DNA from: Bolinopsis microptera | Lineage: Eukaryota; Ctenophora; Tentaculata; Lobata; Bolinopsidae | Direction: 5' to 3' | NCBI RefSeq assembly: GCF_026151205.1 | Contig: NC_087084.1 | Location: forward strand, 12,735,453-12,799,452 | DNA length: 64,000 bases | Shown: in pieces, positions 11,526-64,000 of the stretch | How positions within the stretch are numbered: position 1 is the stretch's first letter | Layout of the letters: every line of letters starts with the position of its first letter | Notes under the pieces: generated by a model | Seen by the model: the letters and a program-made list of their open reading frames with translations, nothing else | Told to the model about the DNA's origin: nothing | The model's database searches: none | Program-made: the position numbers and the translations under genes

Positions 11526-12113
11526 TATTCTTGTATAAATTTGTATTGATCCCGTTTGATGCGACAAGAAAAAATGCTCTTATCAGGAAAGGAATTTCTC
11601 AACGTTTCGATGTTACAACATCGTATTCATGATCTAAAAATATTTATATCAAGATCATGAATATATTTAGTGTGTTGCATTCAACACACTAACCTCAATC
11701 AAGCCATATTTGGCTCCCACGTTCCACACTTCTCATTGGTCAAAGACCATTCCCGCCATTTTTCACCACGCTATAAACACATACCTACACACGTCAAAAA
11801 TCTTTTACCTGTTCACCGCGGCTGTAGCATTCCATGCTCATGTAATCACTAATCATGTGTCGTATATTTAGTCTTGTAGTAGTTTTGTATCGCATTTTTG
11901 GATAAAGTTGATTGAATTTAAAGTAAATAATCGTATACTAATTTAACCTCCGATCTATGTTTTACGTTCTAAATTTTGATATAAATATTTTTATATCATG
12001 AATACGAATGTTGTAACATCGAAACATCGAAAGGTTGAGAAATTCCTTTCCTGATAAGAGCATTTTTCCTTGTCGCATCAAACGGGATCATACAAATTTA
12101 TACAAGAAGATAT
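11526..12113. mobile_element. Fold-back / long-TIR non-autonomous element
   Basis: Arms of about 125 bp at 11526-11655 and 11988-12113 are inverted copies of each other with a few mismatches and a small indel. They share TTCTTGTATAAATTTGTAT, TGATCCCGTTTGATGCGACA and TGCTCTTATCAGGAAAGG. The internal ~330 bp is non-coding. I could not define a target duplication, so the superfamily is unknown. Confidence 0.75.
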
Positions 12114-25675: not shown

Positions 25676-25678
25676 TCG

Positions 25679-33500: not shown

Positions 33501-34192
33501 CCATTAAGAATGCTAAGGTTCAGACTGGATATGAAGTCCAGAAAGAGTTTTCCCCTTGGGTTTATCACAGAGTCTTTGCTTGATCTTGTTGATTTTTCTG
33601 GAAAGCTTGCGATCGTTGAGAAAGCCTCGATGTCAGCTGGAGGTTCATCATCAAAGTTAAAGTTGAGGTCCCCTGTTCTTGCATTGAAGTCTCCTAGAAC
33701 CAGTTTCTCGCCGAGATCTGTGTTTTCAGCAACAAAGTCAATAATGGATTCGAGTGTTGACTGGGATGGTCCACCATTGCTGTTTTTCAGTCTCTTTTTG
33801 TAGGATGACTGCTCTGGGGAGTCGTATACGTTGATTATTGTGAACTTAAGAGTATCATCAGTGGCGGGGCAAAAAGTCACCGCTTGAATATCTGGATGGG
33901 AGCTTTTTACGGGCTTGAAGTCTCCTGACAGGGATCGATGGACCCCCACACATAGCCCACCGGAGCGCGAGCCAGTTCTAAGGCTATTGTAGCATTTGAA
34001 GTTTGGAAGGTGGAACTCAGCCTTCGTTTCCTGCAGGCAGAATATGTTACACCCAATGAGAAGTTTGACGAAGTCCTCATCATCGGCCTTGGGGCCCTCT
34101 TTGAAGGACATTGCGTCATGAATGTTCCACGACAAGATCCTCATAAGGTCTTGTTGGTGGCTCGTAGTCCTATCAGGTATAGAATTAATCAT
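30566..34192 (-). CDS. LINE ORF: AP-endonuclease plus reverse transcriptase
   Basis: 1208 codons from ATG 34192. The N-terminal ~300 residues form an EEP endonuclease (LSWNIHDA; CLQETKAEF; LVLGDFNART; KFSDHRPCL). The central reverse transcriptase shows the A motif GCFVDYAKAFDSV, the B motif GTEQGHPMSPELF and the catalytic LLWADDLILL (one of the usual x-A-D-D forms). The C-terminus carries a CCHC-like cluster (CKHC...EDEKHVLTDC). All diagnostic residues are present, so the protein may be active in target-primed reverse transcription. Its ATG overlaps the stop of the upstream frame (AATGATTAA). Confidence 0.93.
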   Translation of the reverse strand: MINSIPDRTTSHQQDLMRILSWNIHDAMSFKEGPKADDEDFVKLLIGCNIFCLQETKAEFHLPNFKCYNSLRTGSRSGGLCVGVHRSLSGDFKPVKSSHPDIQAVTFCPATDDTLKFTIINVYDSPEQSSYKKRLKNSNGGPSQSTLESIIDFVAENTDLGEKLVLGDFNARTGDLNFNFDDEPPADIEAFSTIASFPEKSTRSSKDSVINPRGKLFLDFISSLNLSILNGDTLGDIFGEPTSINYNGHSVVDYVTASPMLRESVQSLKVLDLTKFSDHRPCLCTLKLSHNYIIDPDEILSSLQPAPIKHKWDENASENKQQFLDVQKEPQFASRIAELVEAVCVKKEDVIKLNENIVGIYRDMADQALPRPRKHKQKPLNRKTRGYKRAKPKSPWFDIACIIEKRELNRLAKTYGKSPLDKELRDSYYNKRREYRKLVRQKKAKFVESLCRDVDEGRDINWSRFKKLKSFSSNGSKLDVFDMMNFCKFFKELYSKPSIPNEETADFTERRKTELRVHELVEVLDKDIEIEELRTAIKGLKKGKAIAEDKILNEFLISSDEPMLSAVLNLFNHCLKLGEYPWTTSLVTPLHKKGSVYDPNNYRAIAVASNVGKLFSTILLQRLLTFRSLNCPDTINQLGFCKKAQTSDHILTLSTCIQKYVTQRKKRLYGCFVDYAKAFDSVCRDAMLYKLWELGVRGRYFQCIEQMYSHSSAKIKLLNRLSETIDIHCGTEQGHPMSPELFKCFIHQLSLDLDNAEEVNVPELNNVNITHLLWADDLILLALDHTGLQKLLNVLHSYCIEWGLTVNIGKTAVMVFNRSGRLLKESLTFQLGETNITSVREYCYLGITFTLNGSSAVAQNKLKQKGLRSYFALKSSIDLRHFRRTIVFKLFDALVVPIVTYGCQVWLPETLFVRNYQDNINTKSLLKETARDPLEKLHLSFLKWTLGVGRKTSNASVWGDTGRCPLVIKASKQVFGYFNRLEQMDRAGCTSLARQAFIEQRTLNLPWYKGIEDLRQSLQSVSSRRLTYPNQFKTALRSTFINCWNDERQNNRKLSFYNTIKSEFTAEAYLNLQLSGEEVKRLAQFRMSAHKFNIETGRYAINRENPLSRICKHCSSSDLEAVGILAELPMFEPIIEDEKHVLTDCSLYDDLRRNIGQQARTMITSGAETFADLFKDILLIRETARFLSKVNKRRFPPSDRKEKEGPTT

Positions 34193-35006
34193 TGCGCTTC
34201 CTTTTCGGTTTGTATCCAGTTTCGTCCTCGTAATTCCCGTGACTGGTCTCCATGTCTACAGTTCTATAAAGAGAATCACGAAACTTCAGCCAGGTTTTCC
34301 GTTGGCCTCTTTCTGAGAGGAACAGTTCTACGCCATTTTTTCCTGTCCCTTTGTTTATGAATCCACCGAGATTACGATTACACGATGTAAAGACACGGTT
34401 TCGGTATTTTTGTCCTGATCTGAGGTTGCTCACAAAAGTTGACAGCAAGCCATTAAAGGATTCAATCTCCTCGGTCAGACGAGGGTAGCCAGGGATTGGG
34501 ATGATCGCTGATAGGCAGAGTTTAGCCGTTGTCGATTCGAGGATGTTGTAGACCATCTGTTTATATTTACCGAAAAGATCGTCAGCAGAAAGTTTGAGCC
34601 AGAATAGGTCTTGAAATCCTGTATGCACGAACACGACATCTGGTTTTGTGTTTCGCACTTTTGATACGAGGCCTCCTTTCGAAATGATATCGTCGACCGA
34701 GAAGGCTCGATATGTGCTGATCTCAAAACGACTGCTAAATTTGGTCCCGTCAAATTTGTTGAAAAAATCATCGTGAACAAGGAGACATTTTCGGTTCGAC
34801 CGCTGGGTCGGATGTGATCTTCCTCTTGGTGTTTCTGGGCTGGTCTGGGCATTCTCCTTTGGTGATTTTTGTTCTGGCTCCATGTGGCTTAGGTTGTTAG
34901 CAGATACGGTTTCTCCATGAGTGCTATTTACTGTTGCCACATGGCTAGTTGGGATAGAATCTCCTGTATTTTCAGTTTGATCTATTCCTGGAGTCTTATC
35001 CTTATC
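34185..35006 (-). CDS. LINE ORF: SGNH-hydrolase-like protein
   Basis: The frame is open from at least 35006. No ATG precedes the conserved part; the frame contains GTG at 34940. Translation may therefore come by frameshift from the upstream ORF or from a non-ATG start. The core (KCLLVHDDFFNKFDG; PDVVFVHTGFQDLFW; GVELFLSERGQRKTW) follows the SGNH/esterase fold found in ORF1 of CR1/L2-type elements. The usual catalytic Ser (GDS block) is Asp (HDD), and the expected block-V His is not at its usual place, so esterase activity is doubtful. Confidence 0.75.
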   Translation of the reverse strand, partial: DKDKTPGIDQTENTGDSIPTSHVATVNSTHGETVSANNLSHMEPEQKSPKENAQTSPETPRGRSHPTQRSNRKCLLVHDDFFNKFDGTKFSSRFEISTYRAFSVDDIISKGGLVSKVRNTKPDVVFVHTGFQDLFWLKLSADDLFGKYKQMVYNILESTTAKLCLSAIIPIPGYPRLTEEIESFNGLLSTFVSNLRSGQKYRNRVFTSCNRNLGGFINKGTGKNGVELFLSERGQRKTWLKFRDSLYRTVDMETSHGNYEDETGYKPKRKRND

Positions 35007-47059: not shown

Positions 47060-47993
47060 CTGAAATTTTGAGGAGTTATAGATTCGAACATATCACACGG
47101 ATAAACTTAAGAAAATCCAACGAAAAATAATTTGAGAATGCGTTTTCGAACATGGTAAGATCAATGAATCGAGGCTTAAAGCATACCATATAGAATCAGA
47201 CAGATAATAATATGAGTAAACTGTGACCAACAGAACGTAACAAGGAAAGCGGCTTGTCGGCCACGCGCGCGGCGTGGGAAATGTTTATATTAGCTGTAAG
47301 TATTTACAATTTCAAAATGTTGCCGCGTCTTACGAATATGTTGACAATATTTATGTCCCACTGAGACCATTGGTCCGTTTTGCCAGAATGAAAATGAAGA
47401 ACTTTTATTGAACTAAAAAGAAGAAATAGGTTCAGTTCTGCCAACAACATTTTAAGTTCAGATTTTTCAATGGGATAAAATTGATTCATAATTCTTGTTC
47501 AAAATAGATCTTTTGAAATACTTAAATACTGAATGATTCGGAAAATCCTGCTAGAATGTGAAACACAAGCAAACATCTTTAGAAGAGAAATTTAACAATT
47601 CCGCTCCAATAGGGAATTTTTTGAGAGGGTGACCCTTTTTTGGGTAACGTGACCCCTAAAATGGCCCCCCCATTTCATCTGAATGGCCGGCCAAACCTGA
47701 GAAGAGGTCGGAACAGTGTCAAGAGCACTGTGATGTAGTGTGTGCAGCATCGAGCTGCATCTCCAACACGTCCAATTACATCCCTTTTAAGGTGGCTAAT
47801 GGGAAAGCCATTATGGGCAACATGAGATGGTCAGGTGACCACTTTGGCGTTAAATCATGCTATCTTGTGACCTCACGTGTCTCATTACTTGCCGCTCTGG
47901 AGGGTAGCAAGGAAATATTCTACAGATCCGAGCAAGGAAAGAGCTAGGTTGACATATAAGTAGGCCTGGGACCACTCAATGGGCAGTTTTAAT

Positions 47994-48112
47994 ACTTTCA
48001 ACACTACTATATAACAAATAATTTGAGGTAAGATTAAGTTCCAATGTGTAACTGGTTCTCTCCGGAGACCAGACTTCACATCTTTTGGTAAGCCTTCCAC
48101 AAGGAGGGCTCT
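47994..48112 (+). ncRNA. SL RNA gene 1 (reference copy)
   Basis: A 34-nt leader exon starts ACTTTCAACACTA and ends AATAATTTGAG, then the donor GTAAGA at 48028. The intron part has a hairpin CTGGT-CTC/GAG-ACCAG capped by a UCCG (UNCG-type) tetraloop, an Sm-like site ATCTTTTGG (48080-48088), and a perfect 8-bp 3' hairpin AGCCTTCC-ACAA-GGAGGGCT (48091-48110). Total about 118 nt, the size of known SL RNAs. TATAA-like sequence lies about 40 bp upstream (GACATATAAGTAGG). The 5' end is inferred from where relics at 1-110 begin to match. Confidence 0.8.
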
Positions 48113-48330
48113 AATAAACGATGCAATAATAAAGATAAACAGAGCTCCCGGTATTGTATCCCGACAGCCAGCTCCGAGTCATGTCCTCTTAGCATGGTTT
48201 TGTGATCACAACCAAAAAGTAGCCAGCAATGTTGTTACAATCAAAGTGCTAATCGCCAGCCATAAAACTAATATTTGCAGGAACTGAGGAATTAATTATT
48301 AAATGTAGTGGCCGTAATTTCATAACTTTC

Positions 48331-48448
48331 GGATACGGCCATACTCGGTTGAATACACCCCATCTCGTTCGATCTGGGAAGTTAAGCAACTGCAGGCCGG
48401 GTTAGTACTTGGATGGGTGACCGCCTGGGAATTCCCGGTGCCGTATCC
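48331..48448 (+). rRNA. 5S rRNA gene 1 (reference copy)
   Basis: 118 nt. The ends pair as helix I (GGATACGGC with GCCGTATCC). The internal control region is conserved (GGGAAGTTAAGCAAC; GTTAGTACTTGGATGGGTGA; CCGCCTGGGAA). A TTTT terminator follows directly. Confidence 0.97.
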
Positions 48449-48854
48449 TTTTGCAAATGATTTGTTAATTTCCTCATTTTTTGAGAGGGGGGTTTTTTTG
48501 GTAACGTGACCCCTAAAATGGGCCCCCCATTTCATCTGAATGGCCGCGCCAAAACTGAGAGAGGTCGGAACATGTCATGAGCACTGTGATTGTAGTGGTG
48601 CAGCATCGAGCTGCATCTCCAACACGTCCAATTTATCCCTTTTAAGGTGGCTAATGGGAAGCCATTATGGGCACATGAGATGGTCATGGTGATCACACTT
48701 TGGCGTTAAATCATGCTATCTTGTGAACTCACGTGTCTCATTGCCTGCCACGCTCTGGAGGGTAAGCAAGGAACATATTCTACAGATCCGGCAAGGAGGA
48801 AAGAGCTAGGGTGAATATATGTAGGCCTGGGTCACTTCAATGGGCAGTTTTTAT

Positions 48855-48977
48855 ACTTTCAACACTGACTTTTTAACAAATAATTTGATGGTATGGATTA
48901 AGTTTCTATGTTGTAAATCTGTGTTCTCTCGGAACCAGACTTCACATCTTTTGGTAAGCCTTCCTACAAGGGGGTCT
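48855..48977 (+). ncRNA. SL RNA gene 2, damaged donor
   Basis: The leader reads ACTGACTTTTTAACAAATAA and ends TTTGATG before GTATGG. The Sm-like site is intact; the 3' hairpin has lost a base. Confidence 0.65.
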
Positions 48978-49190
48978 AATAAACGATGCAATAATAAAGA
49001 TAAACAGCGCTCCCGGTATTGTATCCCGACAGCCAGTCCGTAAGTAAGTACTCTTAGCATGGTTTTGGATCACAACCAATAAAGTTAGCAGCTATGTTGT
49101 TAAAATCAAGTGCTAATCGCCAGTTAAAACTAATATTGCAGGAAAACTGAGGAATTAATTATTAATGTAGTGGCCGTAATTCAAAACTTC

Positions 49191-49311
49191 GGACACGGCC
49201 TTACTCGGTTGAAGACACCCCATCTCGTTGTCGATCTGGGAAGTTATGCAACTGCAGGCCGGGTTAGTACTTGGATGGGTGACCGCCTGGGAAATTCCCG
49301 GTGCCGTATCC
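49191..49311 (+). rRNA. 5S rRNA gene 2
   Basis: Starts GGACACGG (one change in helix I). Only three T follow the gene, a weak pol III terminator if real. Confidence 0.9.
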
Positions 49312-49723
49312 TTTAGCAAATGATTTGTTAATTCTCATTTTTTGAGAGGGTGACCCTTTTTTGGGTAACGTGACCCCTAAAAATGGCCCCCTCCCCATTT
49401 CATATGAATGGTCACGGCCAAACCGAGAAAGAGGTCGGTACGTGTCCATGAGCACGTGATGTAGTTGTGCTGCATCGAGCTGCATCTCAAACGTCCACGT
49501 ACATACTTTTAAGGTGGCTAAGGGGAAAGCCATTATGGGCAACATGAGATGGGTCAGGTGACCACTTTTGGCGTTAAATCATGCTTTCTTGTGACCTCAC
49601 GTGTCTCATTTACTTGCCGCTCCGGAGTGGTAGCAAGGAAATATTCTCTACAGATCCGAGCAAGGAAAGAGCTTGGGTGACATATAAGATGAGCCTGGGA
49701 CCACTCAATGGGCAGTTTTAAAT

Positions 49724-49844
49724 ACTTTCAACACTACTATTTTAAACAAATATTTGAGGGATGATTTAAGTTCCATTGTGTAACTGGTTCTTCCGGAGAC
49801 CAGGACTTCACATCTTTTGGTTAAGCCTTCCACAAGGAGGGCTC
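49724..49844 (+). ncRNA. SL RNA gene 3, donor GT lost
   Basis: The leader ends ATATTTGAG followed by GGATGA in place of GTAAGA; the Sm-like site and 3' hairpin are intact. Confidence 0.65.
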
Positions 49845-50079
49845 TAATAAACGATGCAAAAAAAAAAAAAAATAATAAAGATAAACAGAGCTCCCGGTAT
49901 TGTATCCCGACAGCCAGCTCCGGTCATGTCCTCTTAGCATGGTTTTGTGATCACAACCAAAAGTGCCAGGCATTGTTGTTACAATCCAATAGTGCTATCG
50001 CCTGCCATAAATAATAATATTTCGCAGGAAATGAGAATTAAATTAATAAATGGAGTGGCCGTTAATTTCATATACTTTC

Positions 50080-50195
50080 GGATACGGCCATACTCGGTGG
50101 AATACACCCCATCTCTTCGATCTGGGAAGTTAAGCAATGAGGCGGGTTAGTACATGGTTGGGGGACCGCCCTCGGGAATTCCCCGGTGCCGATCC
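50080..50195 (+). rRNA. 5S rRNA gene 3, shortened
   Basis: The middle reads CAATGAGGCGGG (bases missing) and the 3' end GCCGATCC lacks a T, so helix I and the internal promoter are affected. Confidence 0.85.
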
Positions 50196-50605
50196 TTTTG
50201 CCATAAAGATTTGTTAATCTCCTCATTTTTTGACGAGGGGCACCCCCCCTTTTTTGGGTAACGTGACCCTCTTAAAATGGCCCCCCATTTCATCTGAATG
50301 GCCGGCCAAACCTGAGAAGAGGTCGAGCAGTGTCAAAGAGCACTGTGAATGAGTGTGTGCAGCATCGAGCTGCATCTCCAACACGTCCAATTACATCCCT
50401 TTTAAGGTGGCTAATGGAAAGCCATTATGGGCAACATGAGATGGTCAGGTGACCACTTTGGCGTTATAATTCATGTCTTTCTTGTGACTCACGTGTCTCA
50501 TTACTTGCCGCTCTGGAGGGTAGCAAGGAATTATTCTACAGTTACGAGAAGATAGTGCTAGGTTGAATTAAGTAGGCATGGGACACTCAATGGGCTTGTT
50601 TTATT

Positions 50606-50725
50606 ACTTTCAACACTACTATATAACAAATAATTTGAGGTAAGATTAAGATTTCCAATGTGTAATGGTTCTCTCCGGAGACCAGACTTCAATCTTTTGG
50701 TAAGCCATTCCACAAGGAGGGCTGC
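50606..50725 (+). ncRNA. SL RNA gene 4, leader intact
   Basis: The leader and GTAAGA donor match copy 1. One base is missing in the first hairpin and the 3' hairpin carries an extra A. Confidence 0.75.
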
Positions 50726-50952
50726 TAATAAAACGATGCAATAATAATGATATACAGAGCTCCCGGTTTTGTATCCCGACAGCCAGACTCCGAGATCTGT
50801 CCTCTTAGCATGGTTTTGTGATCACAACCAAAATAGTAGCCAGATATGTTTTTACAATCAAAGTGCTAATCGCAAGCCATAAAATTAATTTTTTGCAGGA
50901 ACTGAGGAATTCATTTATAATTTGTTGTGGCCGTAATTTCATAAACAACTTC

Positions 50953-51070
50953 GGATACGGCCATACTCTGTTGAATTACACCCCATCTCGTTCGATCGGG
51001 AATTTAAGCAACTGCAGGACAGGGTTAGTACTTGGATGGGTGACCGCCTGGGAATTCCGGTGCCGTATCC
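50953..51070 (+). rRNA. 5S rRNA gene 4
   Basis: 118 nt with paired ends. One insertion (GAATTACACC) and one substitution (GGACAGGG) compared with copy 1. Confidence 0.93.
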
Positions 51071-51495
51071 TTTTGCAATGATTTGTTAAATTTCACTCAT
51101 TTTTTTTGATAGGGTGACCCTTTTTTGGGTAACGTGACCCCTAATAATGGCCCCCCCATTTCATGAATGGCGGCCATACCTGTGCAGGAGGTCGGTACCA
51201 GTGTCAAGAGCACTGTGATGTAGTGTGTGCAGCTATCCGAGCTCGCATCTCCAACACGTCCAATTACATCCCTTTTAAGGTGGTAATGGGGAAAGCCATT
51301 TTGGGCAACATGAGAAATGATCAGGTGGACCACTTTGGCGTTAACTCATGCTATCTTGTGACCTCACGGGTCTCATTTTCTTGCCGCTACTGGAGGGTAG
51401 CAAGGAAAAATATTCTACAGAATCACGTGGAACGGAAGGAAAGAGCTGGGTTGACTTATAAGTAGGCCTGGCACCAACTAAATGGGCAGTTTAAT

Positions 51496-51615
51496 ACTTT
51501 CATCTCTACTATCATACCAAATAATTTTGAGGTATGATTAAGTTTCCAATGTGTAACTGGTTCTTCCGGAGACCAGACTTTCACATCTTTGGTAAGCCTT
51601 CCACAAGGGGGCCTC
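51496..51615 (+). ncRNA. SL RNA gene 5, variant leader
   Basis: The leader has TTTCATCTCTACTATCATAC and an extra T before TTTTGAG; the donor is GTATGA. Confidence 0.65.
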
Positions 51616-51839
51616 TAAAAACGATTGCAATAATAAAGATTAACAGAGTCCCGGTATTGTATCCGACAGCCAGTCTCCGTAGTCATGTCCTCTTAGCTTG
51701 GTTTTGTGATCACAACCAAAAAGTGGCCAGCTAATGTTGTTACTATCAAAGTTGCTAATCGCCAGCAAATTTAAATAATAATATTTGCAGGAACTGAGGA
51801 ATTATTATTAAATGTAGTGGCCGGAATTTCTTAACTTGC

Positions 51840-51959
51840 GGATACGGCCATACTCGGTTGAATACACCCATCTCGTTTCGATCTGGGAAGTTAAGCAACT
51901 GCAGGGCCGGGTTAGTACTTGGATGGGTTGACCGCCTGGGAATTCCCGGTGCCGTATCC
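51840..51959 (+). rRNA. 5S rRNA gene 5
   Basis: Both ends intact. One-base insertions at TCGTTTCGATC, CAGGGCCGG and GGGTTGACC. Confidence 0.93.
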
Positions 51960-52377
51960 TTTTGAAATGATTGGTTTAATTTCCTCATTTTTTGAGAGGT
52001 GACCCTTTTTTGGGTAAACGTGACCCCTAAAATGGCCCTCCCCCCCACCCCCCCTTTTTCTGCATGGCCCGGCCAAACCTGAGAGAAGAGGTCGGAAACA
52101 GTCGTCAAGAGCACTGTGATGTAGTGTGTGCAGATCGAGCGCATCTCCAACACGTCAATTACATCCCTTTTTATGGTGGTAATGGGAAAAGCAATTATGG
52201 GCTAATGAGATGTCAGTGTGACACTTTGGCGTTTAAATCCTTGCTATCTTGTGACCTCTCGTGTTCATTACTTGCCGCTCTGGAGAGGTAGCAAGGAATA
52301 TTCTCACAGATCCGAGCAAGGAAAGTGCTTGGTTGTCATATAAGTAGGCCTGGGACCACTCAATGGACAGTTTTATT

Positions 52378-52495
52378 ACCTTCATCACTACTATATAACA
52401 AATAATTTGAGTAAGATTAAGTCTTCAATGTGGAACTGGTTCTTCCGGAGACCAGACTTCACATACTTTTGGTAAGCCTTCCACAATGGGGGCTC
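52378..52495 (+). ncRNA. SL RNA gene 6
   Basis: The leader is intact after TTCATCACTAC, but one G is missing at the junction (TTTGAG|TAAGA). The 3' hairpin loop is changed. Confidence 0.65.
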
Positions 52496-52715
52496 TAATA
52501 AACGATGCAATAATAAAGATAAACCAGAGCTTCCGTATTTGTTCCCGACATGCCATGCTCCGAGTCATGTCCTTAGCGGGTTTTGTGTTCACACCCAAAA
52601 GGTAGCCAGCAATATGTTGTTACAATCAAAGTGCTAATCGCCAGCCATTAAACTATATTGCAGGAAATGAGGAATTAATTAATTAATGATGTAGTGCCGT
52701 AATTTCATAACTTTC

Positions 52716-52831
52716 GGCTACGCCCTTACTCGGTTGAATACACCATCTCGTTCGAATCTGGGAAGTTAAGCAACTGCAGCCGGGTTAGTACTTGAGGGGT
52801 GACCGCCTGGAATTTCCCGGTGGCCGTATCC
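52716..52831 (+). rRNA. 5S rRNA gene 6
   Basis: Starts GGCTACGCCC, which weakens helix I. The middle has lost a G (CTGCAGCCGGG). Confidence 0.88.
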
Positions 52832-53233
52832 TTTGCAAGATGATTTGTTATTTCTCATTTTTTGAGAGGGGTGAACATTTTTTGGGTAACGTGACCCCTA
52901 AAATGGCCCCCCCATTTCTTCTGATGGCGGAAACTGAGAAGAGGTGGAAACAGTGTCAAGCGCACTGTGATGTAGTGTGTGCCGCATCGAGCTGCTTCTC
53001 AACTCGTCCAAAATTACCATCCCTTTTAAGGTGGCTAATGGGAAGCCATTATGGGCAACATGAGGATTGGTCAGGTGACCACTGTGCGTTAAATCAGGCT
53101 ATCTTGTGACCTCAGTGTCTCAGTACTTGCCGCTCTGGTGGGTAGCAAGGAATATTTACAGATCCGAGCATGGAATGAGCTAGGTTGTGACATAATAAGT
53201 AGGGCCTGGTACCCACTAATGGGCAGTTTTAAT

Positions 53234-53350
53234 ACTTTCAAACTACTATATAAACAAATAATTTGAGGGAAGTTTAAGTTCCAATGTGTAACTGGTCTCT
53301 CGGAGACCAGACTTCACATCTTTTGGTAAGCCTTCACAAGGAGGGGACTC
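53234..53350 (+). ncRNA. SL RNA gene 7, donor altered
   Basis: The leader lost two bases near its start (TTTCAAACTACTA). The junction reads TTTGAG|GGAAGT. Confidence 0.6.
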
Positions 53351-53568
53351 TAATAATACGATGCTATAATAAAGTTAAAAGTGCTTCCCGGTTATTGTAT
53401 CCCGACAGCCAGCTCCGGTGGATGTCTCTTAGATGGTTTTGTGACACAACCAAAAAGTAGCAGCATCGTTGTTACACATCAAAGGCTATTCGCAGCCATA
53501 AAAACTAATATTCGCAGGACTGAGGAATTAATTATTAAATGTAGTGCGCCCGGAATTTCATAACTTTC

Positions 53569-53695
53569 GGATACGGCCATACTCGGTTGATTACACCCCA
53601 TCTTCGTTCGATCTGGGAAGTTAGCAACTGCAGGCTCCGGGTTAGTACTTGGATGGGTGAGAACCGCCCTGGAATTCCCGGGGTGCCGTATCTCC
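53569..53695 (+). rRNA. 5S rRNA gene 7, lengthened
   Basis: 127 nt. Insertions in the box C region (GGGTGAGAACCGCCC) and at the 3' end (GTATCTCC). Confidence 0.87.
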
Positions 53696-54110
53696 TTGTG
53701 CAAATTATGTGTTAATTTCCTCATTTTTTGAGAGGGTGACCCTTTTTTGGGTAACGTGACCCTAAAAATGGCCCCCCCATTTCATTGAAATGGGCCGGCC
53801 AACCTGAGAAGACGGTCGGAACAGTGTCAAGGCGCACTGTGATGTTGTGTTGTGCTCAGCATGAGCTGCATCTCCAACACGTCCAATTACATTCCTTTTT
53901 AGGTGGCTAATGGAAAGCATTATGGAACTATGAGATGTCAGGTGACCACTTTGGCGTTGAATCATTGACTGTCTTGTGAATCCTCACGTGTCTCATTTCT
54001 TGCCGCCTCTGGGAGGGTAGCATAGGAAATATTCTACAGATCCGAGCAAGGGAAAGAGCTCTAGAGTGACATATAAGGAGGCCTGGGACCATCAATGAGG
54101 CAGTTTTAAT

Positions 54111-54234
54111 ACTTTCAATCACTACTATATAACAAATATTTGACGGTATGATTAAGTATCCAATGTGTTAATGGGTTCTCTCCGGGAGACCAGTACTTCA
54201 CATCTTTTGGTAAGCCTTCCTCTATGGAGGCGCT
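54111..54234 (+). ncRNA. SL RNA gene 8
   Basis: The leader ends TATTTGACG then GTATGA. The 3' hairpin is altered (CCTTCCTCTATGGAGGCG). Confidence 0.6.
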
Positions 54235-54462
54235 TAATAAAACGATGCTATATAAATTATAGATAAACAGAAGCTCCCGGTATTGTATCTCGACAGCCAG
54301 AGTCTTCGAGTAATGTCCTCTTAGCATGTTTTGTGATCACAACCAAAAAAGTAGCCAGCAATGTTGGTACAATCAAAGTGCTAATCGCCAGCCATATAAC
54401 TAATATTTGCGGATCTGAGGAACTTAATTATTAAATGTAGTGGCCGTAATTTCATAACTTTC

Positions 54463-54583
54463 GGATGACGGACATCTCGGTTGAATACCACCCATCTCGT
54501 CGTTATTGGAAGTTATAAGCTGCTACTGCAGGGCCGGGTTAGTATTGGTGGGTGACGCCTGGGATTTTCCCGGTGCCGTATCC
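54463..54583 (+). rRNA. 5S rRNA gene 8
   Basis: The 5' end is scrambled (GGATGACGGACATC) and the middle carries indels (TTATTGGAAGTTATAAGC). The 3' end is intact. Confidence 0.85.
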
Positions 54584-54999
54584 TTTTGCAAATGATTGTT
54601 TATTTCCTCATTTTTTGAGAGGGTGACCTTTTTTTGGGTAACGTTGAACCATAAAAATGACCCCCCCATTTCATCTGAATGGCCGGCACCAAACCTGAGA
54701 AGACGGTCCGGAACAGTGTCAAGGTGCACTGTGATGTTGTGTGTGCAGCATCGAGCTGCATCTCAACACGTCCCATTTTCTTCCCTTTTGAGGTGGCTAA
54801 TGGGAAAGCCATTTGGGGCAAACATGAGATGGTCAGGTGAACCTACTTTGGCGTTAAATCATGCTATCTTGTGACCTCAGTGTCTATTACTTGCGCTCTG
54901 GAGGGTAGCAAGGAAATATTCTACACGATCCCGAGCAAGGAAGAGCTAGGTTGACCATTATAAGTAGTGCCTGGGAACCACTCAATGGGCAGTTTTATT

Positions 55000-55118
55000 A
55001 CTTTCAACACTACTATATATACATATATTTGAGGTTAAGATTAAGTTCCAATGTGTAACTGGTTCTATACGGAGACCAGACGTCACCACTGTTGGTAAGC
55101 CTTCCACAAGGAGGGCTC
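55000..55118 (+). ncRNA. SL RNA gene 9
   Basis: The leader middle reads CTATATATACATATATTTGAG and the donor is GTTAAG. The Sm-like site is changed to CACTGTTGG; the 3' hairpin is perfect. Confidence 0.6.
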
Positions 55119-55339
55119 TAATAACGATGCAATAATAAAGATAAACAGAGCTCCCGGTATTGTATCCTCAGACAGCCTGCTCCGAGTTTCAATGTCCATC
55201 TTAGCATGGTTTTGTGATCACCAACCAAATAGTAGCCAGCATGGTTGTTACAATCAAAGGCTAATCGCCAGCCATAAAACTATTATTGGGGAACTGAGAA
55301 TTAATTATTAAATGTAGTGGCCGTAATTTCATTACTTTC

Positions 55340-55468
55340 GGTTACGGCCATTACTCGGTGAATACCACCCATCTCGTTCGATCTGGGAAGTAAGCAACTG
55401 CAGGCGGGTTAGTACTTGGTTGGGTGACCGCCTTGGGAATTCCCGTTCTCTCACGCGGTGCCGTTTCC
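55340..55468 (+). rRNA. 5S rRNA gene 9, insertion near 3' end
   Basis: 129 nt. About 10 extra bases (TTCTCTCACGC) split the conserved CCCGGTGCC; the 3' end reads CCGTTTCC. Confidence 0.85.
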
Positions 55469-55896
55469 TTTTGCTAAATGATTTGTTAATTTGCCTCATT
55501 TTTTTGGAGGGGACCCTTGTTTGGGTATCGTGCCCCTAATAATGGCCCCCCATTTTCATCTGAAGGGCCGGCCTAACCTGAGAGAGGTCGGATACAGTGT
55601 CAAGTAGACTCATGCGGGAGGTAGTGGGTGCTGCTTTCAGGAGCTGCATCTCAACACGTCCAATTACTTCCCTTTTATGGGGCTAATGGGGAAAGCCATT
55701 TTGGGCAACATGAGTTGGTCAGCTTGACACTACTTTGGGCCGTTAATAATCATGCTATCTTGTGACCTCAACGTGTCCTCATTACTTGCCGCTCTGGTGG
55801 GTAGCAAGGTAAATATTCTACAGATCCGAGCAAGGAAAGAGCTTAGGTCCCTTGACATATAGTAGGCCTGGGGACCACTCAATGGGCAGTTTTAAT

Positions 55897-56016
55897 ACTT
55901 TCAACACTACTATATAACAAATATTGAGGTATGATTAATAGTTCCAATCGTGTAAACTGGTTCTCGCCGGAGGACACAGCTTCACATCTTTTGGTAAGCC
56001 TTCACAAGGAGGGCTC
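55897..56016 (+). ncRNA. SL RNA gene 10
   Basis: The leader is shortened near its end (AACAAATATTGAG) with donor GTATGA. The Sm-like site is intact. Confidence 0.65.
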
Positions 56017-56240
56017 TAATAAACGACTGCAATAATAATAAGATAAACGAGCTCCCGGTATGGTTTCCCGACAGCCGGCTCCGAGGTCTTGTCCTCTTAG
56101 CATGTTTTGTGATCACAACCAAAAAGTAGCCAGCAATGTGGTTACAATCTAAGTGCTAATCGCCAGCCATAAAACTAATATTTGCAGGTAACTGAGGATT
56201 CAATTATTAAATGTAGTGGCGTAATTTCATAAAATCTTTC

Positions 56241-56355
56241 GGATCGGCATACTCGGTTGAATACACCCCATCCGTTCGATTGGGAAGTTAAGCAAACTGC
56301 AGGCCGGGTTAAAGTACTTGGATGGGTGACCGCCTGGGAATTCCGGTGCGTATCC
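56241..56355 (+). rRNA. 5S rRNA gene 10, short
   Basis: 115 nt; starts GGATCGGCAT with bases missing in helix I on both sides (GTGCGTATCC). Confidence 0.87.
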
Positions 56356-56765
56356 TGTTGCAATTGATTTGTTAATTTTCCCTCATTTTTTGAGAGGGTG
56401 ACCCTTCTTTTGGGGTAACGTGACCCCTAATAATGGCCCCCCCAATTTCTTCTGAATGGCCGGCCAAACTGAGAAGAGGTCGGAACAGTGCCAAGAGCAT
56501 GTGATTAGTGTGTGCAGCATCGAGGCTGCATCTCCAACACGTCCAATTACATCCCTTTTAAGGTGGCTAATGGGAAAGCCATTATGGGCAACATGAGATG
56601 GTCAAGGTGTCCACTTGCGTTTTATAAATAATGCTATCTTGTGACCTCACGTGTCTCATTACTTGCGCTCTGGAGGGTAGAAAGGAAAATACTCTACAGA
56701 TCGAGCAAGGAAAGAGCTAGGTTGACATATAGTAGCCTGGAACCACTCAATGGGGCAGTTTTAAT

Positions 56766-56882
56766 ACTTTCAACACTTCTATATATCATAGAATTTGAGG
56801 TAGATTAAGTTCCAATGTGTTCTGGTTTCTCTCCGGAGACAGTCTTCACATCTTTTGGTAAGCCTTCCACCAAGGAGTGCTC
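56766..56882 (+). ncRNA. SL RNA gene 11
   Basis: The leader has CACTTCTATATATCATAGAA before TTTGAG and donor GTAGAT. The Sm-like site is intact. Confidence 0.65.
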
Positions 56883-57106
56883 TAATAACGATGCAATAAT
56901 AAAAGATTAAACAGGCTCCCGGTTTATTGTATCCCGACAGCCAGTGCTCCGAGTCATGTCCTCTTCGCATGGTTTTGTGATTCATCAACCAAAAAGTATG
57001 CCAGCAATGTTGTTACAATCAAAGTGCTAGTCGCAGACATAAAACTAATATTGCAGGACTGAGGAATTCATTATTAAATGTAGTGGCCGTAAATTCATAA
57101 CTTTCA

Positions 57107-57226
57107 GGATACGGCCATACTCGGTTGAATACACCCATCTAGTTCGGTCTGGGAATTTAAGCAAACTGCAGGCCCGGGTTAGTCTTGGATGGGTGGGACG
57201 GCTGGGAATCCCCTGGTGCCGTATCC
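57107..57226 (+). rRNA. 5S rRNA gene 11
   Basis: Ends pair. Box C region changed (GGGTGGGACGGCTGGG) and box A region reads GGGAATTTAAGCAAAC. Confidence 0.9.
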
Positions 57227-57644
57227 TTTTGCAAATGATTTGTAAATTTCTCTTTTTTGAGAGGGTGACCCTTTTTTGGGTTAAACGTGGACCCCTAAAA
57301 TGGCCCCCCCCCATTTCTTGAATGGCCGGCCAAACCTGTGAAGAGGTCGGCAACCAGTGTCAAGAGCTACTGTGATGTAGTGTGTGCAGCATCGAGACTG
57401 CATCTCCACACGTCCAATTACATCCCTTTAAGGTGGTAATGGGAACGCCATTATGTGCTAACATGAGATGGTCAGGTGACCACTTTAGGGCGTTAAATTC
57501 ATGCTATCTTGTGACCCTCCACCGTGTTCTCATTACTTGCCGCTCTGCGAGGGTTGCAAGGAACATTTCTACGGATCGCAGCAAGGAAAGAGCTAGGGTT
57601 GACATATTAATAGTAGGTGGGACCACTCAATGGGCAGTTTTAAT

Positions 57645-57770
57645 ACTTTCAACATACTATTTTTTTATTTTTTAACAAAATTTGAGGTAAGATTAGTTCC
57701 AATGTGTAACTGGTTCTCTCCGGAGACCCCAGACTTACATCTTTTGTAAGGCCTTCCACAAGGGAGGGTC
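57645..57770 (+). ncRNA. SL RNA gene 12, T-rich insertion
   Basis: The leader has a T-rich insertion of about 12 bp (ACTATTTTTTTATTTTTTAA) but keeps TTTGAG|GTAAGA. The Sm-like site lost its GG (TCTTTTGTAAGG). Confidence 0.6.
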
Positions 57771-57984
57771 TAATAAACGAGTGCAATATAAAGATAAACA
57801 GTGCTCCGTATTTGGTATCCCGCACTGCCAGCTCGATTATGTCCCTCTTTAGCATGTTTTGTGATACAACCAAAAAGGAGCATGCAATGTTGTTTACAAT
57901 CAAAGTGCTAATCGCCAGCCATAAACTAATATTTGCAGGAATGAGGAATTAATTATTTAATGAGTGGCCGTAATGTCATAACTT

Positions 57985-58107
57985 CGGATACGGACTATAC
58001 TCGGTGAATACACCCCTTCTAGTTCGATCTGGGAAGTTAATCAATGCAGGCCCGGGTTAAGTACTTGGATGGGTGGACCGCAGGGCAATTTCCCGAGTGC
58101 CGTATCC
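57985..58107 (+). rRNA. 5S rRNA gene 12
   Basis: Ends pair. Indels at CGGACTATACTC and GTTAATCAATGC within the box A region. Confidence 0.9.
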
Positions 58108-58533
58108 TTTTGGCAAATGATTGTTAATTTCTCTCATTTTTTGAGAGGGAGACCCTTTTTGGGTATACGTGACCCCCTAAAATAGAAAAAAATGGCCCCC
58201 CCATGTCTTCCTGATTGGCCGGCAATCCTGAGAAGAGGTCGAACAGTGTCAATGAGCTAAGTGATGTAGTGTGTGCGCTTCGAGCTGCATCTCCAACACG
58301 TCCTATTACATCCCTTTTAAGGTGGGGCTAATGGGGGAAAGACCATTATGGGCAACATGAGATGGTCAGGTGACACCTTTGGCGTGTTAAATCATGCTAT
58401 CTTGTGGACCTCACGTGTATCATTACCTTAGCCGCTCTGGGGAGTAGCAAGGAAATTATTCTACAGATCCGAGCAGGAAAGAGCTAGGTTAGACTTATAA
58501 GTAGCGCCTGGGACACTCAATGGGCAGTTTAAT

Positions 58534-58648
58534 ACTTTCAACACATACTATATAACAAATTTTTGAGTCAGATTTAAGTCTCCAATGTGTAACTGTTCTT
58601 CCGGAGACCAGACTCATATCTTTTGTTAGCTTCCACTAAGGAGGGCTC
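58534..58648 (+). ncRNA. SL RNA gene 13
   Basis: The leader reads CACATACTATATAACAAATT then TTTGAG, followed by TCAGAT in place of the GTAAGA donor. Confidence 0.6.
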
Positions 58649-58868
58649 TATAAACGAATGCAAATAATAATGATAACGAAGCTCCCGGGATTGTATCCCG
58701 ACAGCAGCTTACGAGTCATGTCCTCTTTGCTTGGGTTTTGTGATCACAACCAAAAGTAGACAGCAATGTTGTTACAATCAATGTGCTAATCGCCAGCCAT
58801 AAAACTAATATTTGCAGAATCTGAGGAGATTAATTATTATATGTAGTGGCCGTTAATTTCATAACTTC

Positions 58869-58995
58869 GGATACGGCCATACTCGGTTGAATTACACCCC
58901 CATCTCGTTCCGATCTGGGAAGTTAAGCAAACGGGCAGGCCGGGTAGTACGTGGATGGTCAGTGACCGCCTCGGGAATTCCCCGGTGCCGTATCT
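58869..58995 (+). rRNA. 5S rRNA gene 13
   Basis: The 5' half is intact. Insertions at AAACGGGCAGG and GATGGTCAGTGACC; the 3' end reads GTATCTTTT. Confidence 0.88.
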
Positions 58996-59410
58996 TTTGC
59001 AAATGATTTGTTAATTTCCTCTTTTTTTGAGAGGGAGACCACTTTTTTGATTTGGTATACTTGACCTAAAATGGCCCCCAATTTCATCTGAATGGCCAGG
59101 CCAAACTGAGATTGAGGTCGGGAACAGTGTCAAGTGCAATGTGATGTTAGTGTGTGCCTGCATCGAGCTGAATTCTCCAACACGTTCCTATCTCATCCTT
59201 TTAGGTGGCTCATGGGAAAAGCCTATTTGGGCAACAGGAGATGGTCAGGTGACCACTTTGGCGTTAAATCATGCTATCTTGTGACCTCCACGTGTTCATT
59301 TACTTGCCGCTCTGGTGGGTTTAGCAAGGAAATTTCTACAGATCCGAGCAAGAAAGAGCTAGGTTGAACCATATTAGTAATGCCTGGGACCACTCAATGG
59401 GCAGTTTTAA

Positions 59411-59535
59411 TCTTTCAACACTACTATATAACAAATAATTTGAGGGTAAGATTAAGTTCCATGTGTAACTGGTTCTGCTCCGGGAGGACCAGACTTCACA
59501 TCTTTTGGTATGTAAGCCTTCCACAAGGAGGGCTC
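59411..59535 (+). ncRNA. SL RNA gene 14
   Basis: First base A missing (TCTTTCAACACTA); the rest of the leader is intact, with an extra G before GTAAGA. The 3' hairpin is perfect. Confidence 0.7.
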
Positions 59536-59759
59536 TACTAAACGATGCAATAATAAAGATAAAACCAGAGCTCCCGGTATTGTATCCCGACAGCCAGCTC
59601 CGAGTCATGTCCCTCCTAAGCATGGTTTTGTGATCAAAACCAAAAAGTAGCCTGCAATGTTGTTACAATCAATGTGCTAATCGCCAGCCATAAAACTAAT
59701 ATTTGAGGAAACTGAGGAATTAATTATTAAATGTAGTGGCCGTAATTTCATAACTTCTC

Positions 59760-59876
59760 GGATACGCATATCGGTTGATACACCCCATCTGTTCGACTCT
59801 GGGAAGTTAAGCAACTGCAGGCGGGTTGTGACTTGGCATGGGGGACCGCCTCCTGGGAATTCCCGGTGCCGTATCC
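59760..59876 (+). rRNA. 5S rRNA gene 14
   Basis: The 5' end lost bases (GGATACGCATATCGG) and box C is disturbed (GTGACTTGGCATGGGGG). The 3' end is intact. Confidence 0.88.
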
Positions 59877-60291
59877 TTTTGCAAAATGATTTGTTAATTT
59901 CCTCATTTTGTTGAGAGGGTGACCTTTTTTGGGTATCGTGACCCCTAAAAATGGCCACCCCATTTCATCTGAATGGCCGGCCAAAACCTTGAGAAGAGGT
60001 CGGAACTCAGTTCAAGAGCACTGTGTGTAGTGTGTGCAGATCGTGCTCGCTTCTCACAAACACGTCCAATTACAATCCCTTTTAAGGTGGCTAACGGGAG
60101 CCATTATGGCGCAACAATGAGATGGACAGTTGACCACTTTGGCGTTAAATCATGTATCTTGTGACTCTCGTGTACTCATTACTTGCCGCTCTGGAGGGTA
60201 GCATAGGAAATATTCTACAGATCGAGCTAGGATAAGATCAAGGTTGACATTATAAGTAGGCCTGGGACCACATCCAATGGGCAGTTTTAAT

Positions 60292-60404
60292 ACTTCAACA
60301 CTACTATATAACAATTAATTTGTGTATGTTTAAGTTCTTGTGTACTGGTTCTCTCCGGAGACACGGAAATTCACATCTTTTGGAAGTTCCACAAGGAGGG
60401 CCTC
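60292..60404 (+). ncRNA. SL RNA gene 15, degraded
   Basis: The leader keeps CAACACTACTATATAACAAT but the junction reads TTTGTGTATG. The 3' hairpin lost several bases. Confidence 0.55.
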
Positions 60405-60628
60405 TAATAAACGATGCAATAATAAAGATTTAAACAGAGCTCGGTATTGTATCCCGACAGCCAGCTCCGAAGTCATGTCCTCCTTAGCATGGTTTGGTGA
60501 TCACAACCAAAAAGGAGCAGCAATGTTGGTTACAATCAAAGTGCTAATCGCCAGCCATAAAAACTATTTTTGCAGGAAAAACTGAGGAATTAATTATTAA
60601 ATGTTAGTAGGCGTAATTTCATAACTTC

Positions 60629-60748
60629 GGATACGGCCCATATCGGTGAATACACCCCTTCTCGTTCGATTGGGAAGTTAAGCAAATCTGCAGCCGGGTT
60701 AGTACTTGGAAGGGTGACCGGCCTGGGAATTTCCCGGTGGCGTTATCC
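60629..60748 (+). rRNA. 5S rRNA gene 15
   Basis: Nearly full match. Variants GGCCCATATCGGTG and TGGCGTTATCC alter helix I slightly. Confidence 0.9.
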
Positions 60749-61170
60749 TTTTGCAAATGATTTTGTTAATTTGCCTCATTTTTGAGAGGCGTGACCCACT
60801 TTTTTGGGTAACGTCGTGGACCCCTACAATTGGCCACCCCCCATTTCATCTGAATGGCCGGCCATAACCTGAGAATGAGGTCGGAACTGTGTCAAGAGCA
60901 CTGTTATTGTAGTGGTGCAGCATCGAGTGCATCTCCAAACAACGTCCAATTACATCCTTTAGGGTGGCTAATTGGGAAAGCCATTAAGGCAACATGAGAT
61001 GGTCAGGTGACCACTTTGGCGTTAAATCATGCTATCTTTGTGCCCTTCACGTGTCTCATTACCTTGCCGCCTCTGGGGGTAGCAAGGGAATATTCTACAG
61101 ATCGAGCAAGGAAAGAGTGTTAGGTTGGAACATATAAGTAGGCTGGACACTCAATGGGAACTTGTTTAAT

Positions 61171-61290
61171 ACTTTCAAAACTACTATATAACAAAATAAT
61201 TTGAGGTAAGATTAAGTTCCAATGTGTAAATGGTTCTTCTCCGGAGACCTGACTTCACCATCTTTTGGTAAGCCTTCCTCAGGAGGGCTC
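61171..61290 (+). ncRNA. SL RNA gene 16
   Basis: The leader reads TTTCAAAACTACTATATAAC and ends TTTGAG with an intact GTAAGA donor. The 3' hairpin loop is shortened. Confidence 0.7.
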
Positions 61291-61507
61291 TAATAAACGA
61301 TGCATAATAAAGATAAACTAGCGCTCCGGTATTGTATCCGACAGCGCTCCGAGTCATTTCTTTAGCTTTGGTTTTGTGATCACAACTCAAAAAGTAGCCA
61401 GCAATGGTTGGTTACAATCAATGTGCTAATCGCCAGCCATAAACTAATATTTGCAGGAACTGAGGATTTAATTTATTAATATGTTGTGGCCGTAATTTAT
61501 ATATTTC

Positions 61508-61629
61508 GGAATACGGCGCATACTCGGTTGAATACACCCACATCTCGTTCGATCTGGGAAGTTAAGCAACTGCAGGCCGGGTTCTTAGTACTTGGATGGG
61601 TGACGCCTGGGAATTCCGGTGCCGTATTC
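61508..61629 (+). rRNA. 5S rRNA gene 16
   Basis: One-base insertions near the 5' end (GGAATACGGCGCATAC) and TTC inserted in GGGTTCTTAGTACTTGG. The 3' end reads CGTATTC. Confidence 0.9.
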
Positions 61630-62033
61630 TTTTGCAAATGATTTGGTTAATCTCCTCATTTTTTAGAGGGGTGCACTTTTTTGGGTAACGTGACCCCTAA
61701 AAATGGCCCCCCATTTCCATTTGAATGGGCCGGCAAACTGAGAAGAGGTTCGCGGAACAGTGTCAAGAGCACTGTGTTGAGTGTGTGCAGCATCGAGCTG
61801 CTTCTCCAACACGTCCAAGTACTCCCTTTAAGGTGGCTACTGGGAAAGCCTTTTTGGGCATCATGAGATGGTCGGTGACCACTTTGGCGCTTTAATCATT
61901 GCTATCTTGTGACCTCACGTGTCTCATTACTTGCCGCTCTGGAGGGTAGCAGGAAATATTCTACCAGTTCGAGCAAGGAAAGAGCTAGGTTGACATATAA
62001 GTAGGCTGGGACAACTCAATGGGCAGTTTTAAT

Positions 62034-62148
62034 ACTTTCACACTACTATATATCAAATAATTTGAGGTAAGTTTAAGTTCCAATGTGTTAACTGGTTCTC
62101 TCGGAGACCAGACTTCACATCGTTTGGTAGCCTTCCAAGGGAGGGCTC
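62034..62148 (+). ncRNA. SL RNA gene 17
   Basis: One A missing (TTTCACACTACTA) and TATATCAAATAA in the middle; TTTGAG|GTAAGT is intact. The Sm-like site changed to TCGTTTGG. Confidence 0.65.
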
Positions 62149-62364
62149 TAATATACGATTGCAATATAAAAGATAAACAGAGCTCCCGGTATTGTATCCC
62201 GACAGCCAGCTCCGAGTCATGTCCTCAGCATGGTTTTGTGATCACTACCAAAAAGTTGCAGCATTGTTGTTTACAATCAAGTGTAAATCGCCAAGCCATA
62301 AAACTTAATATTTGCAGGAACTGAGGAATTAATTATTAAATGTAGTGCCGATTTCATAACTTTC

Positions 62365-62484
62365 GGATCGGCCATATCGGTGAATACACCCCATCTCGTT
62401 CGTCTCGAGGAAAGTTAAGCAACTGCAGGCCGGGTTAGTACTTGGTTGGGTGGACCGCCCTGGGAAGATCCCGGTGCCGTTTCC
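62365..62484 (+). rRNA. 5S rRNA gene 17
   Basis: Starts GGATCGGCCATATCGG with bases missing; the middle has CGTCTCGAGGAAAG; the 3' end reads GCCGTTTCC. Confidence 0.88.
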
Positions 62485-62887
62485 TTTTGCATATGATTTG
62501 TTAATTTCTCTCATTTTTTGTGAGGGTGACCCTTTTTTGGGTAACGTGACCCCTAAAAATGGCCCCCCCTTTTCATCCTGAATGGCGGCAAACCTGAAGA
62601 AGAGGTCGGAACAGTGTCAAGAGACTCGTGATGTAGTGTGTGCAGCATCGTGCGAATCTCCAACACGTCCAATTATCATCCTTTTAAGTGGCTAATGGGA
62701 AAGCATTTGGCAACATTGAGATTGTCAGGTGACCACTTTGGCGTTTAATCATGCTATCTTGTGACCTCACGTGTTCTCATTATTGCCGCTTGGAGGGTAG
62801 CAAGGAAATATTCGACAGATCCGAGCAAGGAAGAGTAGGGTTGACATATAAGTAGGCCTGGGACCACTCAAATGGGACAGTTTTAAT

Positions 62888-63002
62888 ACTTTAACACTAC
62901 CTATATAACAAATAATTGAGGTAGATTAAGTTCAATGTGTAACTGGTTCTCTCCGTAGACCAGTCTTCACATCTTTTGGTAAGCTTTCAACAAGGAAGGG
63001 CT
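62888..63002 (+). ncRNA. SL RNA gene 18
   Basis: The leader reads ACTTTAACACTACC, then TATAACAAATAATTGAG and donor GTAGAT. The 3' hairpin stem carries substitutions. Confidence 0.65.
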
Positions 63003-63221
63003 CAAAATAAACGATGCCTATAATAAAGATAAACAGAGCTCCGGTTTGTATCCGAAGCCAGCTCCGAGTCATGTCCTCTTAGCTTGGTTTTCTGTCACAC
63101 CAAAAAGTAGCCAGCAATGTGTTACAATCAAAGTGCTAATCGCAGCCATAAAACTAATATTTGCAGGATACTGAGGAATTAATTATTAAATGTAGTAGCG
63201 CCGTTAATTTCTTAACTTTAC

Positions 63222-63342
63222 GGATACGGCCATACTCGGTTGATATACACCCCATCTCGTTCTGATCGGGGAAGTTAAGCAACTGCAGGCCGGGTTAGTA
63301 CTTGGATGGGTGACCGCCTGGGAATTTCCCGGTGCCGTATCC
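63222..63342 (+). rRNA. 5S rRNA gene 18
   Basis: Close to copy 1, with paired ends and TTTT terminator. Small insertions at GATATACACC and TTCTGATCGGGG. Confidence 0.93.
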
Positions 63343-63761
63343 TTTTGCAAATGATTTGTAATTTCCTCAATTTTTTTTGAGAGGGTGGACCTTTTTTGGG
63401 TAACGTGACCCCTATAATGCCCCCCCCCCCATTTCATCTGAAATTGCGCCGGCCAATCCTCGAGAAGAGGTCGGAACAGTGTCAATGAGCATGTGATGTA
63501 GGTGTGTGCAGCAATCGAGCAGCATCTCCAAACACGTCCTAAATTACATCCCTTTGAAGGTGGCTAATGAATGCCATTATGGCAACATGGAGAGGGTCAG
63601 GTGACCACTTTGGCGTTAAATTCATGACTATCTCTGTGACTTCAGTGTCTCATTACTTGCCGCTTGGAGGGTAGACATGGAAATATTCTACAGATCCGAG
63701 CATAGGATAGAGCTAGGTTGACTTATAAGTAGGCTGGGACCACTCAATGGGCAGTTTTAAT

Positions 63762-63880
63762 ACTTTCAACCCTTACTATCTAAACACATAATTTGAGTTA
63801 AGATTAAAGTTCAATGTGTAACTGGTTCTCTCGGAGACCGGACTTCACATCTTTTGGTACAGCCTTCACAAGGAGGGCTC
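63762..63880 (+). ncRNA. SL RNA gene 19
   Basis: The leader has TTTCAACCCTTACTATCTAA and ends TTTGAG before TTAAGA (GT changed to TT). The Sm-like site is intact. Its downstream 5S gene lies beyond the window. Confidence 0.65.
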
Positions 63881-64000
63881 TAATAAACGATGCAATAATA
63901 AAGATAAACAGAGCTACCGGTTATTGGAGCACGGACAGCCAGCTCCGAGTCTTGTCCTCTTAGCATGGTTTTGTGATCACTACCAAAAAGTAGCTTGCAA

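Follow-up and report, generated by a model that had tools for sequence, protein, structure and literature searches.

The window analysed here is a stretch of 64,000 nucleotides of the ctenophore Bolinopsis microptera, and its right-hand part is occupied by a tandem array of spliced leader (SL) RNA and 5S rRNA genes (Table 1). A blastn search detected 19 SL copies, the number counted in an earlier sequence-only reading of this DNA; they span 47994–63881, with each ~0.87-kb repeat holding one. Rfam placed 5S rRNA above threshold at 16 places in the window, all on the forward strand. The leader of the first unit is spelled AGTTTTAATACTTTC..TTTGAG and is followed by a GTAAGA donor, a UCCG-capped hairpin, an Sm-like site and a terminal hairpin, all at the places claimed for them. 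The leader itself had been described as 34 nt long and starting at 47994; its end, TTTGAG/GTAAGA, stood, while the start moved to 47985 or 47986, resulting in an exon of 42–43 nt. Similarly, the terminal stem, said to be a perfect 8-bp helix, does have eight pairs, with one U-G pair among them.

Table 1. Coordinates of the SL RNA gene, the array and related features in the window.
Feature	Position	Strand	Basis
SL1 leader exon, 42–43 nt	47985..48027, start 47985 or 47986	+	5' edge of 24 dispersed copies
5' splice donor GTAAGA	48028..48033	+	sequence; invariant in 8 aligned SL genes (6 distinct)
First hairpin CUGGU-U-CUC(UCCG)GAG-ACCAG	48052..48072	+	fold
Sm-like site ATCTTTTGG	48080..48088	+	sequence
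Terminal hairpin AGCCTTCC-ACAA-GGAGGGCT	48091..48110	+	fold and alignment
Putative proximal promoter element, with CAAGGAAAGAG around -52 to -42	47926..47943	+	weak match to U2 matrix
5S rRNA gene, 218 bp 3' of SL unit 1	48331..48449	+	Rfam RF00001, 109.7 bits
SL+5S tandem array	47611..64000, running past window edge	+	
18 further SL copies, noisy	48855..63881	+	blastn
Leader fragments	5-24 (-), 50-64 (+), 92-110 (+)		sequence match; in L039, an inverted pair at the edge
Short ATCATGAATACG-family copy (L114), unspliced type, 3' splice site ..ATTTTTAG/ at leader position	about 11527..11641	-	

Folding, proposed as a check in the sequence-only reading, agreed with the claimed structure. The 3' part of the RNA (48028–48112) had a z-score of -3.5 and beat 200 of 200 dinucleotide shuffles; none of 200 shuffles was as good as the terminal hairpin (48089–48111, z -4.4), two equalled or bettered the first hairpin (48049–48072, z -3.2) and one was as good as the whole RNA of copy 1 (z -2.6). 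Whole-RNA folds of a gene of the second leader class, SL2 (z -1.6, 16 of 200 shuffles as good), and of a solitary gene on contig C2 (z -1.7, 12 of 200) were unexceptional. Copy 1, the consensus of copies 2–18 and eight genes of the array types all have the joint TTTGAG/GTAAGA. In an alignment of eight SL genes, six of them distinct, no variation was seen in GTAAGATTAAGTTCC, the TTTTGG of the Sm-like site or most of the terminal stem; seven of the eight terminal pairs never vary whereas the loop does, and the SL1 leader is unchanged in the five other SL1-class genes. An outer AUGUG/CACAU helix was paired in 89% of cases, and shifting the partners 1 to 3 columns out of register reduced the paired cells from 96% to 34–54%. 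The UCCG loop is variable (UCAG in the array on contig C3, UUUC in SL2), and the first hairpin of SL2 has one pair swapped on both sides, UA to AU; covariation across the six distinct rows was not significant, 91 of 500 shuffles reaching the same value. By sequence and folding, the hairpins and the Sm-like site fit an SL RNA, with Sm binding predicted. The corresponding site in three fully read U2 genes was GATTTTTGG, compared with ATCTTTTGG in the SL RNA.

Compared with copy 1, copies 2–19 showed 85–96% identity over the SL segment and 88–92% over whole units, as might be expected if the array consisted of dead or decaying SL pseudogenes with the functional genes elsewhere. However, the majority consensus of copies 2–18 (n=17) matched copy 1 at 131 of 131 SL bases, with differences in 9 of 1,137 alignment columns, five of these at the very start, and one extra C in the 5S gene. 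The 5S genes of the array were equally noisy (Rfam scores of 39.7–92.5 bits against 109.7 in copy 1), and in clean units ~140 kb past the right edge on the same contig the SL segment matched that of copy 1 at 98–99% identity and the 5S gene at 100%, making decay of the array very improbable. The disagreement among copies is mostly random and, since the 17-copy consensus equals copy 1 and the distant units are clean, is best read as uncorrected long-read error. PacBio CLR is listed among the libraries in PMC10232365, which also states that TGS-Gapcloser was used to close gaps of B. microptera.

Exact matches to the leader followed by GTAAG numbered 70 genome-wide, 36 on contig C3, 20 on C13, 12 on C5 and one each on C1 and C2. 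Arrays combining SL and 5S genes were present on C13, which includes the window, and on C5. A mixed array at 15.24 Mb of C13 contained four units of 702–704 bp from which 149 bp including the 5S gene are missing, in addition to two SL+5S units, one of 851 and one of 853 bp. The C3 array (L045, L056) has a 591-bp unit, and no 5S gene was found in the 18.9 kb searched there; compared with the other arrays its leader is unchanged and its SL segment 96% identical, with a few hundred upstream bases partly kept and the 3' flank diverging immediately after AGGGCTCTAAT. The second leader class, SL2, with the leader sequence AGTTTTAAACTAATTACAACACTACAAATCTATTACATTTATTGAG, forms its own ~434-bp array at 14.49–14.52 Mb of C1 (L050, L051), where 16.9 kb searched likewise contained no 5S gene. 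A search with a 33-base pattern allowing up to two mismatches, which misses noisy copies, located 73 5S places in the genome, 33 inside known SL arrays and 40 elsewhere. The statement that every 5S spacer holds an SL gene thus applies to each repeat of the window array and fails for those 40 places. The linkage is real in the window, yet neither necessary nor universal, and because the arrays free of 5S keep the same SL RNA, it is a matter of array housing and not a requirement. A second kind of 5S linkage exists in this genome at C3:11694300-11695300, where Rfam identified 5S (74-193) and U2 (540-731) genes ~350 bp apart on the same strand. A U2 gene at C1:19147720 and a solitary SL1 gene at C1:19149839 are ~2.1 kb apart. 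In addition, 5S genes occurred as facing inverted pairs ~2.7–6.5 kb apart (C3:96624/99472, C3:2780526/2783825, C3:20270002/20273215, C6:7322860/7329350, C11:15365725/15368473 and C130:14124/17393), as might result from a mobile element that carries 5S or targets it.

Nine U2 places were found and eight of the genes fetched; seven had an element at -58 to -61 with the consensus TCAAACRCAAGGA, and the eighth was without it. SL2 genes have TCAAACGCAAGGAAAG at -60, which matches the element of the seven U2 genes with a score not reached once in 5,000 random 90-mers drawn from the window. SL1 genes gave a weak, non-significant match to the U2 matrix at the same place, with constrained fractions of 0.034–0.18 in five genes. 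As judged by these matches, a putative snRNA-type promoter shared with U2 is shown for SL2 and is plausible for SL1.

If the leader is donated to other transcripts, reverse transcription may leave it in the genome joined to unrelated sequences. The exact 34-nt core of SL1 followed by a base other than G was found at 595 places in the genome and the exact last 25 nt of SL2 followed by such a base at 323, the reversed patterns at none; these numbers are lower bounds, as a dispersed family beginning with G also exists (leader/GTATGAC.., three read). Looser counts (1,635 for SL1 with up to three mismatches, 1,052 for SL2 with up to two) were set aside because a terminal G costs one mismatch, so that SL genes themselves are admitted. 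We read 30 SL1 and 16 SL2 loci with ~1.5 kb of flank on each side. Downstream sequence grouped these 46 loci into 20 clusters, and 32 of the 46 belonged to repeated families. Two clusters mix SL1 and SL2: in one, locus L073 and SL1 members align from the first base, and in the other (L023, L069) the alignment begins at base 11–13. At least one target family has received both leaders. Rfam searches for ribozymes or known RNAs in 19 of the 30 dispersed SL1 loci and in L039 returned 25 matches, all below gathering scores and nearly all to miRNA models. At L018, L030, L039 and other loci, leader copies formed head-to-head inverted pairs with gaps ranging from a few to some tens of bases. An element with tandem monomers of ~101/181 bp containing the SL1 leader occurred at L057 (C2:1844001-1846000), L058 (C2:5123001-5125000) and L024, the last with a CCHC zinc knuckle downstream, and at L017 the leader tags an ORF-bearing element that encodes a 2OG-Fe(II) oxygenase domain.

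The dispersed copies also served to map the 5' edge of the leader. Of the 30 SL1 copies, five in inverted pairs and one with a duplicate upstream sequence were dropped; some of the 24 remaining may be segmental duplicates. Each base of TTTTAAT was retained in 21–24 of the 24, and the G 5' of it in 14; at the position preceding this G, A was kept in 10 and is no commoner than T. As retention falls off before TTTTAAT, the exon starts at 47985 or 47986. The edge of SL2 was similar (T in 13 of 16 copies, G in 8 of 16).

In one host gene, both an unspliced form and leader-bearing forms were identified. At L010 the leader precedes an ORF of 103 residues with a start that by eye resembles a signal peptide. 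A relative at C3:14105323 contains two introns and is without a leader; at the joint it has a canonical 3' splice site and reads ..CTTGTTCTAG/CTAAATTCTCTACC (..TTTCAATCTTGTTCTAG/). The only other genome matches to this gene, at C1:1414842 and C3:9949245 (all three candidates read), have the leader joined at its AG/ and neither of the introns; by eye, an obvious poly(A) tail was absent from both retrocopies. Taken as DNA footprints, these loci show donation of the leader to 3' splice sites, and DNA retrocopies of what appear to be trans-spliced RNAs answer the question of whether the leader reaches varied transcripts.

The corresponding situation in a retroposon was seen in one family, designated by ATCATGAATACG, which has its own 3' splice site. 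Of 629 first-look candidates 40 were scored, and we read 39 of 47 reported matches to this family, omitting seven partial secondary matches and the leader-bearing query copy. The leader was present in 25 of the 39 copies. In six, a common unspliced sequence lay upstream and ended in TTTTTAG/ at the same joint base, judged against the upstream stretch of L122, which itself fits by construction. The remaining eight were ambiguous, three of these also ending TTTTTAG; L103 and L112 were placed here with scores of 12 vs 11 and 10. The copy inside the window, L114 (11527-11633), matched the unspliced upstream stretch partially (score 17 of 37). Leader and body were equally diverged in 18 copies of the family (0.950 vs 0.955), a comparison that gives no sign of repeated fresh leader addition. 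Since the leader ends TTTGAG and so places an AG at the joint again, re-capping there without a second leader would be possible. An exact genome search for abutting SL1–SL1 pairs (0–6 bases apart) found none, in line with this idea. Leaders do recur in longer tandem monomers. We regard it as evenly poised whether trans-splicing forms part of a retroposon life cycle, in which short families and some ORF-bearing elements would gain SL1 or SL2 and reinsert with the leader, possibly with re-capping of this kind.

The dispersed leaders might instead belong to a mobile repeat that contains the leader, or represent shared 5' exons, with the array unit derived from the repeat; their number and their frequent occurrence as inverted or tandem pairs would suit such an origin. 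It is nevertheless highly improbable given the many unrelated sequences 3' of the leader, the two leaders before one body family, the intron-bearing gene with a 3' splice site that has intronless leader-bearing copies, and the meeting of unspliced and leader forms of one element at the same base. To our knowledge, nematode SmY RNA has no leader exon. That the unit is an SmY-type or other Sm-class RNA and not a leader donor is extremely improbable, as the Rfam match to SmY (RF01844; 48033–48111), which likewise has an Sm site between hairpins, scores 24.5 bits against a gathering score of 39 and leader transfer is documented by the retrocopies.

With leader, donor, hairpins and Sm-like site in place and with DNA footprints of leader transfer, the proposal that the 5S spacer houses a gene for SL RNA was borne out, and we put the probability that the unit at 47994–48112 is a functional ctenophore SL RNA gene at about 95%. 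Transcription of the unit would run in the direction of the 5S gene, with RNA polymerase II probably acting at a promoter of the snRNA type, to give an RNA of ~128 nt that may be assembled into an snRNP through its hairpins and Sm-like site. As the DNA footprints show, its first 42–43 nt are donated by trans-splicing, from TTTGAG/GTAAGA to the 3' splice sites of target pre-mRNAs, and there are two leader classes, SL1 and SL2. Through reverse transcription of trans-spliced RNAs, leader-tagged copies have spread across the genome.

Ctenophore spliced leaders were reportedly described by Derelle et al. in 2010. Trans-splicing in ctenophores is already known, as are SL genes linked to 5S in other organisms. 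The sequence-only reading did not recognise the leader as a published one; a homologue has in fact been published in Hormiphora californensis. The two leaders are homologous over the whole length, with 39 of 41 aligned bases identical (score 54, compared with a maximum of 30 in 5,000 shuffles) and the same AATTTGAG end. According to sections of the Hormiphora study, 56% of Iso-Seq reads carry the homologous leader, and the genomic leader copies number 718 in Hormiphora and 491 in Mnemiopsis (PMC8527503). Those sections describe leader exons and do not mention a gene for the SL RNA, an Sm site, linkage to 5S or a second class, and the main text has '5s rrna' 0 times. Mis-mapping to the nearest leader locus was suggested there (PMC8527503), whereas we explain the dispersed Bolinopsis copies as retrocopies. 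By analogy, this suggests that genomic leader counts such as the 718 in Hormiphora may largely count retrocopies and not SL genes.

The statement that 5S linkage is known in nematodes and other lineages was correct: two papers place SL1 of C. briggsae on, or clustered with, the 5S repeat (PMC7986045) and copepod slRNA genes with the 5S repeat, as well as in tandem repeats without 5S (PMC4664967). The arrangement is the same as in Bolinopsis, but the leaders differ and by eye show no kinship. A minor leader form of the chaetognath Spadella gave no alignment (score 5, compared with up to 15 in 2,000 shuffles). It has been proposed in a review that SL RNAs arose from 5S-linked U1 elements (PMC4233971). 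SL-tagged retrogenes are reported in dinoflagellates (PMC6050394), and these are likewise leader-tagged DNA copies of trans-spliced RNAs; Bolinopsis differs in being an animal and in that 32 of 46 tagged loci belong to repeated families and not to single host genes. A literature search by leader letters gave no matches for ACTTTCAACACTA, and those obtained via the 11-mer AATAATTTGAG were by title not on spliced leaders. Within a limited search of titles and abstract starts, no description was found of a ctenophore SL RNA gene or its 5S linkage, or of leader-tagged retroposons in an animal. The genes reported here provide a gene-level handle, comprising two leader classes, array positions and a likely SL2 promoter element, and the retrocopies make trans-splicing demonstrable from the genome alone.

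Elsewhere in the window, a LINE-type ORF with endonuclease and reverse transcriptase domains lies at 30566-34255 on the reverse strand; a leader match was sought at its 5' side and none was found. A 346-bp interstitial array with the telomere-like unit GGGTTA is located at 25678-26023. An ORF at 12971-15565, also on the reverse strand, contains LDL-receptor class A and 7tm_1 domains and presumably resembles a relaxin-type receptor.
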